From: an uncultured Pseudomonadota bacterium
Lineage (GTDB): Bacteria > Pseudomonadota > Alphaproteobacteria > UBA9219
Length of the DNA stretch: 42,886 nucleotides
Assembly: GCA_903920205.1 (NCBI GenBank)
Contig: CAIXLI010000153.1
Coordinates: 1-42,886 of the forward strand
Reading direction: 5' to 3'
Of this stretch, positions 34,623-39,742 are shown piece after piece (the first letter of the stretch is position 1; every line of letters begins with the position of its first letter). The notes under the pieces are model-generated. The model ran no database searches. It was given only the letters and a program-made list of their open reading frames with translations, and had not been told where the DNA came from. A program made the position numbers and the translations under genes.

Positions 34623-35969
34623 ATGAAGAAAGCATTTTTAGGTTCAGTTGCTACCGGCGTTATGTTGCTCGCTCTGACAGGGGCTGGACATGCCGCAAAT
34701 CCCACCCCCCCCAACAACAATCAAAATACAGACCCTAGCGTCACCGTGAATACGCAAGTCGACGGGAATACCCTTGCGTCCAACAATACTTCGACCGACA
34801 CCACGACCAAGGTTATCGACTCGAACAACACCACTAACACTAACACTAACACTAACACTAACACCACCACCAATACCGACAACACTCAAAACACCAACAA
34901 GACATCGACCGATACCACGACCAAGGTTATCGACTCGAACAACACCTCCAACAAGACATCGACCGACACCACAACCAAGGTTATCGACTCGAACAACACC
35001 TCCAACAAGTCGTCGACCGACACCACGACCAAGGTTTCCGACTCGTACAACACCACCAATAAGACTTCGACCGATAACACGACCAAGGTCAGTAACTCCA
35101 ACAACACTACGAACAACACCACGAATAAGACATCAACCGAAAACACGAGCAAGGTCATCGACTCGTATAACTATGACCCCAAGACCTATACGACAAACAT
35201 CGACTCGTTCAACACTGCGAACACTGTTGATGTAGTTGCCACCCAAACATTGTCTTCGACCGTAACCGGCAACAACGCCTCGATCAACGCCTTTGGCGCT
35301 GCGGGCGCTGTCGGCGGCAATGGGTCTGGCGGCGATGGAGGCAATTCAATTGCGTTTGGAGCAAGTGGATCGGCTAAATCAAGCAGCACAGGCGGGTCCG
35401 TTAAATCGGCCGATGGCGGCAATGCCTCCGCGAAAAGTTCTGGCGGCGATGCTGGTCAATTCAGCTTAGGCGGCGAAGCTGGCAAGGGCGGCTCCAGCGG
35501 CTCTGTCGCAGCCAGCGGATCTGGTGGCGGAACCGGTGCTAGCGGAGCCGTTACGGGCCTCGGCAGCAACGATGCTAGCGGCGCAACAGGGGCAGCAGGT
35601 TCTGTCGTTGCGTCTGGCGGTACCGGCACAGCTGGTACTGGAGGCACTGGCGGCACAAGCTCGAACGGCTACGCCACTGGCGGCGCGTCGAGCGACACAG
35701 CGTCTGGCGGCGGCTCCTCGGCGAGCGGCACAGCTGGTGCTGCCTCGGCGAGCAACGCGACTGGAGCTGTTGCCTCAAACGCTAACGGCGGCGCTGCAGG
35801 CTCCGGCGTTGGTGGAACAGGCGGCGCGGGTGGATCGGCTTCGGCCTATACCGGAAGCCTGTCGGCCAGCACAGCTGGAAACGGCATCTACACTGTGGGG
35901 CTGAACTCCGGATTGAATTTTGCAGGGATCAACGCGACCAACGTCGCTGGTCAAGGCACGATTCACTAA
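34623..35969 (+). CDS. Repeat-rich secreted protein, candidate major functional-amyloid subunit
   Basis: A 448-residue exported protein. The signal peptide MKKAFLGSVATGVMLLALTG ends at GHA (residue 24). The mature part starts with Asn/Pro, then Thr/Asn/Ser-rich repeats of about 18 residues with the pattern STDTTTKVIDSNNTSNKT (one at residue 57, then a row at about 95-188). A bridging segment follows (VDVVATQTLSSTVTGN), then a Gly/Ala/Ser-rich region of about 200 residues with few bulky residues, then a short end TAGNGIYTVGLNSGLNF. There is no Cys in the mature part. Low-complexity Asn/Thr/Gly/Ser sequence, exported and next to a FapF-like pore and FapD-like peptidase, points to a fibre-forming FapC-like role. 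Direct homology to FapC is not visible. The start is fixed by AGGAGG and the signal peptide; an in-frame codon at 34560 is rejected. Confidence 0.7.
   Translation: MKKAFLGSVATGVMLLALTGAGHAANPTPPNNNQNTDPSVTVNTQVDGNTLASNNTSTDTTTKVIDSNNTTNTNTNTNTNTTTNTDNTQNTNKTSTDTTTKVIDSNNTSNKTSTDTTTKVIDSNNTSNKSSTDTTTKVSDSYNTTNKTSTDNTTKVSNSNNTTNNTTNKTSTENTSKVIDSYNYDPKTYTTNIDSFNTANTVDVVATQTLSSTVTGNNASINAFGAAGAVGGNGSGGDGGNSIAFGASGSAKSSSTGGSVKSADGGNASAKSSGGDAGQFSLGGEAGKGGSSGSVAASGSGGGTGASGAVTGLGSNDASGATGAAGSVVASGGTGTAGTGGTGGTSSNGYATGGASSDTASGGGSSASGTAGAASASNATGAVASNANGGAAGSGVGGTGGAGGSASAYTGSLSASTAGNGIYTVGLNSGLNFAGINATNVAGQGTIH
34905..35186 (+). repeat. 54-base tandem repeats encoding 18-residue Thr/Asn-rich units
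   Basis: Units start at 34905, 34959, 35013, 35067 and 35133. The first three are exactly 54 bases apart; the fourth is 66 bases long because of an added ACGAACAACACC-like piece. A further unit starts at 34791, separated by a stretch of the hexamer AACACT repeated about five times (34832-34861). Units read TCGACCGACACCACGACC and onward, and diverge stepwise along the array. Confidence 0.85.
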
Positions 35970-35983
35970 GCCTCGAAGGGTTT

Positions 35984-36041
35984 CCCGATCCGGCATCATC
36001 CCGATGCCGGATCGGGTTCTCTCTTCTTTCGGTTTTTTTTT
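35984..36041 (+). terminator. Strong terminator/attenuator between the major subunit gene and the accessory genes
   Basis: A perfect 14-bp stem, CCCGATCCGGCATC / GATGCCGGATCGGG, with the loop ATCCC, followed by a pyrimidine-rich stretch (TTCTCTCTTCTTTC) and nine T (36033-36041). It begins 14 bases after the stop of the repeat-rich gene and ends 31 bases before the next start. Partial read-through here would give much more of the first protein than of the rest. Confidence 0.85.
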
Positions 36042-36072
36042 GCGCGAGCTTATCGCGCCAGTGGAGGGGTCA

Positions 36073-36477
36073 ATGAATAGCATTCCCAACACAGAATTTC
36101 GTCGGACGCTTTGCTTGGCTTTCCTTCCGGCGCTCTTATTTTTTATCGCGTCTTTGTCTCTTGCCTCCGTGTCTCAGGCGGCACCTTCGGGTGATGATAC
36201 GCTCGTTCTCACGTCGGTCGGAGCTTTGAGCGCAAGCGATATGGAAGTCAACCGCGGTTCGGGGGGGACGACCACGACTGTGACCGTCACATCCAACCAA
36301 ACTATGGATTCGACATCCACGGGCAACACCCTGAACGTAGGGGGAAACCTGACGAACGGCCCTATATCCGTAGGCAATAATTTTGGCGGCAGCGGCTTTG
36401 GCAGCTACGTCATGAATACGGGCAACAATTCGGTCATCAACTCCGGTGTCAGTCTTAGCGTCTTGATGATGCAATAG
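36073..36477 (+). CDS. Small secreted protein with internal double-glycine-like leader, candidate minor fibre subunit or nucleator
   Basis: A 134-residue exported protein; a Sec signal (hydrophobic core at about 13-34) ends near SQA at residue 36. After a short spacer the segment ALSASDMEVNRGS (residues 51-63) fits the double-glycine leader consensus LSxxELxxIxGG at the key positions (L-12, S-11, D-8, M-7, G-2, S-1). Cleavage after residue 63 would leave a 71-residue Thr/Asn/Gly/Ser-rich peptide. This contains QTMDSTSTGN, similar to QTLSSTVTGN of the repeat-rich protein, and SYVMNTGNNSVINSGVSLSV, similar to a segment of the 271-residue protein downstream. GGAGG precedes the ATG at 36073. The C39-peptidase gene begins 14 bases later, so they are one unit. 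The role as a FapA/FapB-like component is inferred. Confidence 0.75.
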   Translation: MNSIPNTEFRRTLCLAFLPALLFFIASLSLASVSQAAPSGDDTLVLTSVGALSASDMEVNRGSGGTTTTVTVTSNQTMDSTSTGNTLNVGGNLTNGPISVGNNFGGSGFGSYVMNTGNNSVINSGVSLSVLMMQ

Positions 36478-36490
36478 GAGCGGTGCGCTC

Positions 36491-37318
36491 ATGACTGGAT
36501 GGACCAAAACTTTTAGCCCCGCGACGGTGGCTCTTTCGGCCTTGCTTCTTTTGGGGTGCGAATCAGGTGTGCGCGTTGACGCGACTTCTGTGTCCCCGGC
36601 GAGCCAAGAAGGCCTTGGGGCAGTTGCGGTCGAGAATGGGCCTAAAGGCGAAACAGTCGGCGTCGGGATTATTAGCTGGCGCGACATGCCGTTCCAAACG
36701 GTCAGACGTCAAGCCTACGACTATAGCTGCGGGTCGGCGGCGGTTGCGACGTTGGTTACATACGCCTATGGCATCCCCACTTCTGAAAAAGACGTTTTCG
36801 AAGAGATGTTTGCGCGCGGCAATCAGGACAAAATACGACGCGAAGGGTTTTCGATGCTCGACATGAGCAACTACCTGAACGCTCATGGGCTGCAAGCCAA
36901 GGGCTATAAAATGACGGAGGACGTGATCGAAAAACACAGGATGCCGTTTATCGCCCTCGTCAACAACAAGGGCTACAACCATTTCGTCGTCGTCAAGACC
37001 GTGGATAGTGGGCGCGTGCTGGTGGGGGACCCCAATACCGGTAATACTGAATATTCGCGCGACGATTTCGCCAAGATTTGGAACGGCCTCGCCCTTGTCG
37101 TCGTTAACAACGCTTCGAAGGCGCACGCGGCCTTCGGCGATCAGAAGGAATGGCGCTTTGCGCGTGCGCATGTGTCACTTCGCAACGGAAACGATAGTGG
37201 GATCGAGGCTTCGGAACTCGCGCCCTTATCGTGGCAAATCGCGCCGACGGGATCCGACATATTATCGTCGACAAAAATCGGCACGGTAGCGGTTTCAGCA
37301 ACGGGAGGCACACCATGA
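36491..37318 (+). CDS. C39-family cysteine peptidase lipoprotein, FapD-like
   Basis: A 275-residue protein. The N-terminus ends in the lipobox LLGC (Cys23), so it is likely lipid-anchored in the periplasm. The C39 peptidase domain has all catalytic features: Gln74 and Cys80 in RRQAYDYSCGSAAVATLV, His164 in GYNHFVVVKTV, and Asp180 in VGDPNTG. These peptidases normally cut after double-glycine leaders as a domain of bacteriocin ABC exporters. A stand-alone exported one next to a FapF-like pore is the FapD arrangement of the Pseudomonas Fap amyloid system. The two flanking genes both encode proteins with such a site. A C-terminal extension of about 70 residues (from about 205) has no clear function. 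AGGAG lies ten bases ahead of the ATG; the 3' end overlaps the next gene (ATGA). Confidence 0.85.
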   Translation: MTGWTKTFSPATVALSALLLLGCESGVRVDATSVSPASQEGLGAVAVENGPKGETVGVGIISWRDMPFQTVRRQAYDYSCGSAAVATLVTYAYGIPTSEKDVFEEMFARGNQDKIRREGFSMLDMSNYLNAHGLQAKGYKMTEDVIEKHRMPFIALVNNKGYNHFVVVKTVDSGRVLVGDPNTGNTEYSRDDFAKIWNGLALVVVNNASKAHAAFGDQKEWRFARAHVSLRNGNDSGIEASELAPLSWQIAPTGSDILSSTKIGTVAVSATGGTP

Positions 37319-38130
37319 AAGCCAGAACGATCATCGCATCGGCATTAGTTTTGGCCGTCGCTCTCTGCGCGTTCCCTTTGTCGGCACTTGCAGCTTCTGA
37401 ACTGGGAACTTTTTTCTCTGCCGGCGCAACGCCCATTGAGTACTACGAAGACCTGATGGATCAAGATTTGGATTCCTCGTTCTGCGCCGATGCGCTTCCG
37501 CTTACAGACTATGCAGGACTGGCAAGAAACGTCCGGACTGTCTCTTCTTTACCTCAGGCTCCTTTACCTCAGGCTCCTTTACCTCAGGCTTCTCTACCTC
37601 AGGCTTCTCTACCTCATGCTTCTTTACCTCAGGCTTCGGAACGTATTGTCCTTGCTGAAGCGACGCCCCTTACTTCGAGCGAAATGCAAGACATGCGAGG
37701 AGGATTCATTGACCCCAGTGGCTTGATTTATAACTTCGCCGTCGACGTACAGACCGCCCTGAATGGAGTCGCCGTTTTCACCCGTTCACTGACCATTTCC
37801 CCTTCAGGTTCTGGTGGACAATTTCAGGCGGCTGCCCACGCTAGTTTGCTGCCCAAAAACTTCCCGAGTAATTTTAACGTCACAATGATCGACAACGGGA
37901 AAGGCGTGACCGTCACCGATACAAGCGGCAACAGCTCGACGGTTTTGAATCAGTCCGCAAGCGGCGCCCCTACAAGCGTGATTATGAACACAAGCAGCAA
38001 CACAAACCTGTCGCAATCGGTCAACGTAACGCTGACTCTGAAAAACGTTTCGTCGGTCATGAACTTTGTTCACGCGACGACTCAGGCCGCCATGGGACAA
38101 CACGCGGCGATGCGTTCTCTCGGTTTCTAA
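37315..38130 (+). CDS. Secreted protein with Pro-rich repeats and internal double-glycine motif, FapE-like candidate
   Basis: A 271-residue exported protein; the signal peptide (hydrophobic to LSALA) ends near residue 26. Then comes an acidic part with one Cys (SSFCADALP), six copies of a five-residue LPQAx unit (about 78-107), and PLTSSEMQDMRGG (residues 118-130). The last fits the double-glycine leader consensus LSxxELxxIxGG position by position. Cleavage after Gly130 would release a 141-residue Ser/Thr/Asn-rich domain beginning FIDPSGLIYNFAVDVQ. That domain has VIMNTSSNTNLSQSVNVTLTL, similar to the end of the 134-residue protein. GGGAGG precedes the ATG, which overlaps the peptidase stop. 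Proposed role: exported amyloid-associated protein processed by the neighbouring C39 peptidase. This is inferred, not shown. Confidence 0.75.
   Translation: MKARTIIASALVLAVALCAFPLSALAASELGTFFSAGATPIEYYEDLMDQDLDSSFCADALPLTDYAGLARNVRTVSSLPQAPLPQAPLPQASLPQASLPHASLPQASERIVLAEATPLTSSEMQDMRGGFIDPSGLIYNFAVDVQTALNGVAVFTRSLTISPSGSGGQFQAAAHASLLPKNFPSNFNVTMIDNGKGVTVTDTSGNSSTVLNQSASGAPTSVIMNTSSNTNLSQSVNVTLTLKNVSSVMNFVHATTQAAMGQHAAMRSLGF
37546..37635 (+). repeat. Six 15-base tandem repeats encoding LPQA(P/S) units
   Basis: The unit is close to TCTTTACCTCAGGCT, repeated six times without gaps. Copies differ at one to three bases (CCTTT, TCTCT, CATGCT variants). Being a multiple of three, changes in copy number keep the frame, so the Pro-rich linker length could vary between strains. 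Confidence 0.9.
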
Positions 38131-38425
38131 GCTCCCGACAGGCGTAATTCGCGCCATGAGCGGTGGCGGGGGGCCGTGTTCGCGCATCCCCTAACCTTCT
38201 GAAGAACAATCCTAAAACAAGCCTGTTCACACCGCATCGGCTTGCCGATGCATGGTGTGATTCGAAAGGCGCACTTTACATAGAGGAAATAAAAGAATAA
38301 AAATTAGGTAGATTCTTCCTTCGCAAGACGGATGGGAAGAACAAGGAACCGTTCATTAACGGAAAATACAGATCAGCACCCCTTTGTAAATTTTTCTTCC
38401 TGCACCCTCATTCAGCGAGACGGCT
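38131..38425. promoter_or_regulatory. 295-base gap ahead of the FapF-like gene, with a dyad at 38227-38260
   Basis: No gene is visible. The main structure is TCACACC-GCATCGGC-TT-GCCGATGC-AT-GGTGTGA (38227-38260), a 15-bp inverted repeat with a two-base bulge and a two-base centre. No T-run follows, so it looks like an operator or a folded RNA rather than a terminator. An AT-rich stretch follows (AAATAAAAGAATAAAAATTAGG, 38287-38308), where a promoter for the pore gene might lie, but I see no clear -35/-10 pair. Confidence 0.4.
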
Positions 38426-39742
38426 ATGCAAAAACTTTCCTCTCTGGCGTCCTTGTGTCTTTTTGTTTTTTCTCTTGCGTGTTTCACGTCCCTGCCCGCG
38501 CAAGCCGATGTGCAAAGCGACATCAAAGAGCTTACGTCTCGGCTTAACCGACAGGAAAAACTTATCGAAGACCAGCAGCGCATGATCGACGCGCAATCTC
38601 AGGAAATTAAGAAACAAAAAAAACTTATCGAATCTTCGATAGATAAAACGGAGCCCAGGAAAAAAGAAGTGGCGGTATCTTCAGAGAAAACTTATTCCGC
38701 AGCGCCGCAACAAGCTAAGACAAGCCATGCCATCGCGCCGCAGCCGACGGTTCAAGCGTCGTCCATGACTCCCCTGACCGCCCCACGGACCGAAGAACCC
38801 GCACGCCCCCAAATTGATGCGTTGGCCAGTCAGGGAGGTATTTTGTCTCCGGCGGGTTCGCTGACTTATGAAAACACTTTTGAATACACAAATACGACGC
38901 GCAACCTTTTTACCTTTAACGGCGTCGAACTTTCACAAGTCGTTTTGGTTGGCGCGGTCAACGATACTACCGCACGCCATCAAATTGTGCAGGAGACGGG
39001 ACGCTTGAGGCTCGGCCTTACGAACAGGCTCGAAGCCGATGTTCACGCGCCTTTTGTCTATCGCAACGATGCCCTGACGAATACCGATACGACGACGCAC
39101 GCCGTTCAAACGACCTCGCTGGAAGGCGCGGATCTTGGCGATATTGATGTCGGCCTTGCCTATCAGCTGAATAACGGCACGCAGGGGTGGCCGTTCCTGA
39201 TTGGCAACCTGCGTTACAAAGCCAACAACGCCGATGGCCCCTATGATATTCCCTATAACGCCAGCAATATCGCCACACGGTTGCCGACCGGAACGGGATT
39301 CCAAACCGTCGAGGCCAGCGTCACCGCGATCAAGGTCAGCGATCCCGCCGTATTGTTTGGCAATATCGGTTATGTTTACGACGTGCCGCGCGACATCAAC
39401 CGTAATTTTAGCGGGACACATGTCGGGCGTGTCAACCCGGGCGATGCCGTTAACGCCTTGGTAGGCATGGCATTTTCCATCAATCAGGATACGTCATTCT
39501 CGCTCGGCTACAAACACAGCTATGTCTTCCCGACGATTCAGAGCTCGATCAATTTGTCATCGGGAGCGGCGTTCGACACCAATAGCGGCACTTCTCAAGT
39601 GGGGGCCCTGACTTTTGGCCTTTCCCACGCCATTACGCCGACGACAAGCATTAACTTTAATGTCGAGGCGGGCGTGACGAACGATGCCCCCGATGTTCAT
39701 CTGGTCGTCCGCGTCCCATTCCAGCTTGGGAACGTGTTTTAA
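38426..39742 (+). CDS. FapF-like outer-membrane beta-barrel with N-terminal coiled coil
   Basis: A 438-residue outer-membrane protein. The signal peptide ends at AQA (residue 27). Residues 33-69 form a striking heptad array with Ile or Leu at 40, 47, 54, 61 and 68 and Gln at 43, 50, 57 and 64, a parallel coiled coil. A Pro/Ala-rich linker follows (about 75-135). The barrel runs from ILSPAGSLTYENTFEY to the C-terminal RVPFQLGNVF, with alternating polar and nonpolar strands, GLTNRLEADVHAPFVYRND and AEAGVTNDAPDVH-like blocks (here VEAGVTNDAPDVH). From memory, strand by strand, this resembles the Pseudomonas FapF amyloid-export pore, a trimer whose N-terminal helices form a coiled-coil plug. The start has only a weak ribosome site. 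Together with the C39 peptidase gene this is the strongest evidence for a Fap-type locus. Confidence 0.85.
   Translation: MQKLSSLASLCLFVFSLACFTSLPAQADVQSDIKELTSRLNRQEKLIEDQQRMIDAQSQEIKKQKKLIESSIDKTEPRKKEVAVSSEKTYSAAPQQAKTSHAIAPQPTVQASSMTPLTAPRTEEPARPQIDALASQGGILSPAGSLTYENTFEYTNTTRNLFTFNGVELSQVVLVGAVNDTTARHQIVQETGRLRLGLTNRLEADVHAPFVYRNDALTNTDTTTHAVQTTSLEGADLGDIDVGLAYQLNNGTQGWPFLIGNLRYKANNADGPYDIPYNASNIATRLPTGTGFQTVEASVTAIKVSDPAVLFGNIGYVYDVPRDINRNFSGTHVGRVNPGDAVNALVGMAFSINQDTSFSLGYKHSYVFPTIQSSINLSSGAAFDTNSGTSQVGALTFGLSHAITPTTSINFNVEAGVTNDAPDVHLVVRVPFQLGNVF

Follow-up and report, generated by a model that had tools for sequence, protein, structure and literature searches.

The closest described relative of the locus analysed here is the Fap system (fapABCDEF) of Pseudomonas, whose subunits FapB and FapC carry three repeats each (PMC12392863); absence of FapA is common in canonical Fap too (PMC3792158). 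Fap has already been reported from many Pseudomonadota families and some other phyla (PMC12822426, 2025), and the surveys of 2025 describe it as evolutionarily fixed, almost always with three repeats. These surveys (PMC12392863; PMC12822426) demanded matches to the FapB/C repeats, and a branch with other numbers of units would tend to escape them. FapC secretion depends on the catalytic Cys38 of FapD, and mass spectrometry detects no N-terminal peptides at all for FapE, alone among the Fap proteins; no canonical C39 site had been recognised in Fap proteins, and the target of FapD has been posed as a question (PMC5557850). FapD is also "thought to process" FapE and FapF (PMC12822426).

The window, by which we mean the whole stretch of 42,886 nucleotides that was analysed, comes from a bacterium that the original prediction took for an alphaproteobacterium, an assignment that we accept. 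Five adjacent same-strand ORFs for exported proteins, at 34623-39742, lie between recG (ends 34279) and purC (starts 39927). All five had been predicted, and all are found in the ORF listing with an N-terminal signal peptide, as judged from visual inspection and a simple in-house score; signal peptides and gene starts are calls of simple heuristics. The features are as follows.

34623..35969, + strand: large exported subunit, 448 aa, in the position and putative role of FapC (ORF and family profile)
35984..36016, + strand: 14-bp perfect hairpin, then a U-rich tract, between the large-subunit and small genes (folding against shuffles)
36073..36477, + strand: small exported subunit, FapB-like, 134 aa, with signal peptide, leader and one Fap-type unit
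36226..36261, + strand: leader LSASDMEVNRGS, double-glycine type, in the small subunit, with a predicted helix at 54-60
36491..37318, + strand: FapD-like C39 peptidase, a Sec-exported lipoprotein, 275 aa (Pfam and NCBIfam)
37315..38130, + strand: FapE-like exported protein, 271 aa, with signal peptide, disordered linker, leader, beta domain and C-terminal helix (FapE profile and AlphaFold model)
37544..37637, + strand: 15-bp tandem repeat encoding an LPQA[PS] spacer from signal peptide to leader of the FapE-like protein
37669..37704, + strand: leader LTSSEMQDMRGG in the FapE-like protein, predicted cleavage after Gly130, before FIDP
38426..39742, + strand: FapF-like outer-membrane barrel, 438 aa, with N-terminal coiled-coil region and linker (NCBIfam, PDB, tree)

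The gene order is thus large-small-D-E-F and not the canonical B-C-D-E-F, and it recurs in relatives, where large, small, D and E usually follow in this order and F adjoins E in variable orientation. The ORF listing contains no sixth gene or FapA between recG and the large subunit. Rfam and tRNA scans of the window returned nothing, and a promoter scan gave matches no more numerous than in shuffles.

The 275-aa protein is a C39 peptidase (Pfam PF03412, E 6e-24) with the lipobox LLLGC and with invariant catalytic Cys80, His164 and Asp180, and it matches the NCBIfam FapD model at 148.9 bits (E 1e-43; cut-off 330). In the HMM search proposed with the original prediction, the 438-aa barrel matches the FapF model at 127 bits (E 7e-37; cut-off 700), and it also matches the FapF crystal structure 5o67 in the PDB (E 6e-23), so that both the FapD-like lipoprotein and the FapF-like barrel are confirmed. 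All matches of the window's proteins lie under the curated Fap cut-offs, and since those to FapD and FapF fall far below, the two proteins are relatives rather than equivalogs. A neighbourhood survey, likewise proposed at the outset, found the C39 protein paired with the FapF-like barrel in nearly all relatives, and this co-occurrence is not a matter of chance. The E98-K401 pair of FapF is required for FapC secretion in Pseudomonas. The window barrel keeps E111, R157 and one PTG motif of FapF; the pair itself has become Q136-R429 and F103 has become Ser, at a position where most clade members have Thr or Ser and canonical FapF has Phe. With these residues changed, the plug mechanics of the clade's barrels may differ from those of canonical FapF.

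The reading of the fourth protein as FapE-like is upheld by its family, which matches the canonical FapE profile at 94.8% (E 5e-8; 0.05% for the reversed control), the matched region covering the leader and the first part of the mature domain. The NCBIfam FapE model matches 5 of 43 family members and not the single window protein, and Foldseek and VIA-align searches with the structural model of that protein were uninformative, finding nothing at E 0.001 or Z 5. Downstream of the signal peptide, FapE-like proteins carry the motif L-x3-[ED]-[LM]-x3-R-G-G-F, which is LTSSEMQDMRGG-FIDPSG in the window, and the AlphaFold model predicts a helix at 121-128 on this leader, followed by the beta domain. 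Double-glycine leaders in the C39 literature have a hydrophobic residue at -12, an acidic one at -8, a second hydrophobic one at -7 and Gly at -2/-1, and the FapE-like leader has the same spacing. With the pattern fixed, the leader is found in a first set in 27 of 27 FapE-like proteins (shuffle mean 1.6, maximum 8), in 20 of 27 small proteins (shuffle mean 0.4; the other seven are without the strict motif) and in 11 of 13 canonical FapE (shuffle mean 0.6), where the two misses are near-matches, LADDELSDMHGK and VDDDVLATQTGK; it is found in 0/13 FapB, 0/13 FapC and 0/24 large subunits. A second set, the best 80 of at least 592 named stretches, has it in 75 of the 77 FapE-like neighbours and in 46 of the 77 small proteins, with the reservation that two loci (L106, L107) match first-set contigs, leaving about 78 new ones, and that related species are not independent. 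The canonical FapE motif ends in Lys or Arg (RGK, RGR) instead of RGG, and the leader of the window's small protein ends in GS, not GG. In the window's FapE-like protein the 15-bp repeats lengthen the LPQA[PS] spacer that separates signal peptide and leader; the FapE-like proteins of the same-genus loci L074, L075 and L078 are without it.

Other loci that combine a C39 peptidase and a barrel, namely the Fil type and a small third type, also have a comparable leader, carried by an exported protein encoded next to the C39 gene. In the FilC-type loci L196-L200, exported proteins encoded upstream of the C39 gene start, after the signal peptide, with [ML]xDxx[LM]xxxTGQxG (for example AMDDSSLSSVTGQAGI), in which Gln replaces the second Gly. 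The third type (L033, L035, L037, L032) has a small exported protein with a GG leader (LSDTQMDSVVGG, LSATQMDAVAAG; LSxxQMDxVxGG-like), together with a free C39 peptidase and a barrel distantly related to FapF. Canonical FapA has the strict pattern in 2 of 11 cases, no convincing enrichment. Its conserved LSDxDFxxxxSG stretch, for example ELSDSDFAGVTSG (L081, L083-L085, L104, L105), resembles a double-glycine-type leader ending in SG, and FapA may, by this resemblance, be a ligand or substrate of FapD.

The double-glycine-type leader is new here and was missed by the first reading; the open-access literature on FapD substrates, on periplasmic C39 systems and on Fap in Alphaproteobacteria describes neither the leader nor the clade that carries it. 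It is probably the cleavage or recognition site of FapD; it could also serve for binding and not be cut. It gives a precise candidate site for what FapD cuts and, since the motif is common to the sister branch and canonical FapE, reduces the question of the FapD target to single-site mutagenesis.

The large subunit consists of the signal peptide, N/T-rich 18-aa repeats (a 54-bp tandem repeat at 34894-35107 in the gene), a G/S/A-rich middle and a C-terminal 32-aa unit resembling the Fap repeat, which agrees with the predicted secreted repeat-rich subunit. It is mostly of low complexity, 77% being G/N/S/T/A/Q. With the unit HMM the large subunit of the window reaches only 1.8 bits (reversed -3.0), and it was the family profile that placed its C-terminus (GNGIYTVGLNSGLNFAGINATNVAGQ). 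Pfam and NCBIfam give no family at a meaningful score for the window's large, small and FapE-like proteins, and AlphaFold orders only the signal peptide and leader helix of the small protein, with no confident fold for the mature part. The statement of the original prediction that these subunits have no readable homology to FapB/FapC stands for the single proteins and falls for their families. The small-protein family matches the canonical FapB profile at 68% over one repeat, the C-terminus of the large family matches the small-family profile at 64%, and direct profile comparison of the large family with FapC gives nothing (0.02%). A canonical Fap-repeat HMM exceeds 5 bits in 41/77 small proteins (0/77 reversed), and an HMM built on the terminal unit of the small proteins matches 12/13 canonical FapB (median 12 bits) and 54/96 large subunits (1/96 reversed), usually once and at the C-terminus. 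By these matches most of the clade's large subunits retain the terminal Fap-type unit, and the suggestion that the subunits are new is not sustained: one Fap repeat is present in the small family, and a single unit closes most large subunits. The three repeats of about 39 residues of FapB/FapC are not found in these families, which usually have one Fap-type unit, with four in the large subunits of L183 and L185, eight in L026 and twelve in L028. L183 and L185 (Neoroseomonas, Caldovatus) branch early in the clade and are possible intermediates to canonical Fap. A same-genus relative (L078:3421-5571) has extra Gly-rich exported ORFs upstream of the large subunit.

The hairpin behind the large-subunit gene has a z of -5.7 in the window (0/200 shuffles). 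A hairpin of at least 10 bp stands in the same place in 57 of 71 named loci from the best 80 of at least 592, against 2.3 expected by mononucleotide shuffles and 8 of 45 in other same-strand intergenic regions. The window hairpin is a probable attenuator or 3' stabiliser. Such an element is expected there if a major subunit is made in excess, and its conservation suggests that the large protein is this subunit.

Of the genomes sampled, 16 of 289 from the class and 37 of 398 from the phylum have a FapF-like barrel, and larger stretches were taken around these barrels and around FapD matches in near relatives. By FapF score and gene content the loci sort into canonical Fap (defined by a FapF E below 1e-100 and FapB/C with SGNIGVNxAAGxxNxQ repeats), the window's type and the small third type. 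In a quick-search FapF tree with 65 rows, support is 100 for canonical Fap (13 rows) and 98 for the clade of the window (49 rows); the two stand on opposite sides, with the window among its own genus and family; on this tree the clade is sister to canonical Fap and not inside it. It comprises Alpha-, Beta- and Gammaproteobacteria, a Myxococcota member and a Geobacteraceae member. A named-genome scan with the FapD-like query gave at least 592 stretches, at least 583 of them confirmed relatives, of which the best 80 were kept. Among the sampled Pseudomonadota genomes the sister branch is about as frequent as canonical Fap, and some genomes (G123, G342, G391) have both types; it is widespread and apparently undescribed. 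The locus is thus divergent, as predicted, but it is one member of a large clade rather than a lone variant. The expected widening of the range of Fap is modest, since canonical Fap is already present in 3 of 289 sampled Alphaproteobacteria and a broad range has been reported (PMC12822426). In L096:3817-7870, two equal-scoring FapD ORFs and two identical downstream FapE-like ORFs show that part of the cluster was recently duplicated in tandem.

We consider it likely, taking the proposed model as a whole, that the locus encodes a fibre-export system of Fap type, from a branch that is sister to canonical Fap. The homologies, the gene order, the leader, the catalytic residues and the hairpin are direct observations. 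Judging from the signal peptides, Sec would carry all five proteins across the inner membrane. The FapE-like and small FapB-like proteins would then present a second, C39-type leader, L-x3-[ED]-[LM]-x3-R-G-[G/S], which the lipid-anchored periplasmic FapD-like peptidase would recognise and probably cut after RGG/RGS. The processed proteins and the leaderless large subunit would leave by the FapF-like barrel, presumably trimeric by homology. By analogy with Fap, the large low-complexity protein would be the bulk fibre subunit, the small single-repeat protein a nucleator or tip and the FapE-like protein a cell-surface anchor, and the hairpin would hold the large-subunit mRNA above the level of the downstream genes. 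The assembled material would probably be an amyloid-like fibre for adhesion or biofilm. There is about an even chance that this reflects a general route, with Sec export to the periplasm, removal of a second double-glycine-type leader by a free C39 peptidase and exit by a FapF/FilC-class barrel, common to four lineages (canonical Fap, Fil, the window's clade and the small third type), in which FapE, and here the small subunit too, would be the FapD substrate.

That the same machinery exports a non-amyloid surface polymer, such as a silk- or adhesin-like gel, is rather unlikely; the composition of the large subunit, with at most one unit resembling the Fap repeat, speaks for such a polymer, but most large subunits of the clade have terminal Fap-type units and those of L028, L026, L183 and L185 have several. 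A canonical Fap operon whose subunits have drifted beyond recognition would account for the D, E and F homologues and the Fap-type units in the subunit families. It is nevertheless improbable, as the FapF tree separates the clades (100 versus 98), FapA is absent, the large gene precedes the small one, the subunits have usually one and up to 12 units rather than three, and the leader ends in RGG, not RG[KR], and is present on the small subunit too.

Readings outside fibre export fare worse. Export of a bacteriocin or microcin, with the barrel as outer-membrane exit, is suggested by the C39 domain and double-glycine-type leaders, which are hallmarks of such exporters; we regard it as very improbable because the peptidase stands alone as a Sec-exported lipoprotein with no ABC domains, the proteins with the leader each bring a signal peptide and have Fap-type units in their mature parts, and the barrel is FapF-like, not TolC. 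Least credible is an uptake channel for hydrophobic compounds (COG4313 type) beside unrelated exported proteins: FapF is structurally related to COG4313 channels (PMC6173800), but FapF models and structures are the best matches of the barrel, and the FapD-FapF pairing with leader proteins recurs in 75-77 of the 80 best of at least 592 named loci.

As a probable fibre-export system of a Fap sister branch, the locus can be compared with four described kinds of system. Curli (Csg) sends a Q/N-rich repeat subunit through Sec and then through an outer-membrane pore of its own, and the window's system would resemble it in both steps; family searches gave no Csg-type match. C39 ABC transporters (PCAT1, ComA, LahT) have in common with it the C39 fold, the catalytic residues and the double-glycine leader logic, but the window's peptidase is a free periplasmic lipoprotein of 275 aa, without ABC or membrane domains and not a C39-ABC fusion, and its putative substrates have their own Sec signal peptides. 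The putative FilB/FilC pilus (NCBIfam NF050078, NF050079) likewise has a C39 peptidase, a related barrel and a leader-like motif (VTGQ), directly after the signal peptide of an exported protein; the window scores 112 bits for FilB (cut-off 475) and 75 for FilC (cut-off 630), against 149 and 127 for FapD and FapF, and Fil substrates have no HMM match to the window's families. Pseudomonas Fap agrees with the window's type in its FapD, FapE and FapF homologues, the D-E-F order, a comparable FapE leader, and the possession of a small and a large family of exported subunits, both with Fap-type units. The window's type differs in forming a sister FapF clade without FapA and with the large gene first, in bearing a canonical GG leader also on the small subunit, in the lipid anchor of FapD in its family, and in changes to the E98-K401 pair and to F103 in the FapF plug. 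Its 1 to 12 units contrast with the three of the "evolutionarily fixed" Fap (PMC12392863; PMC12822426).
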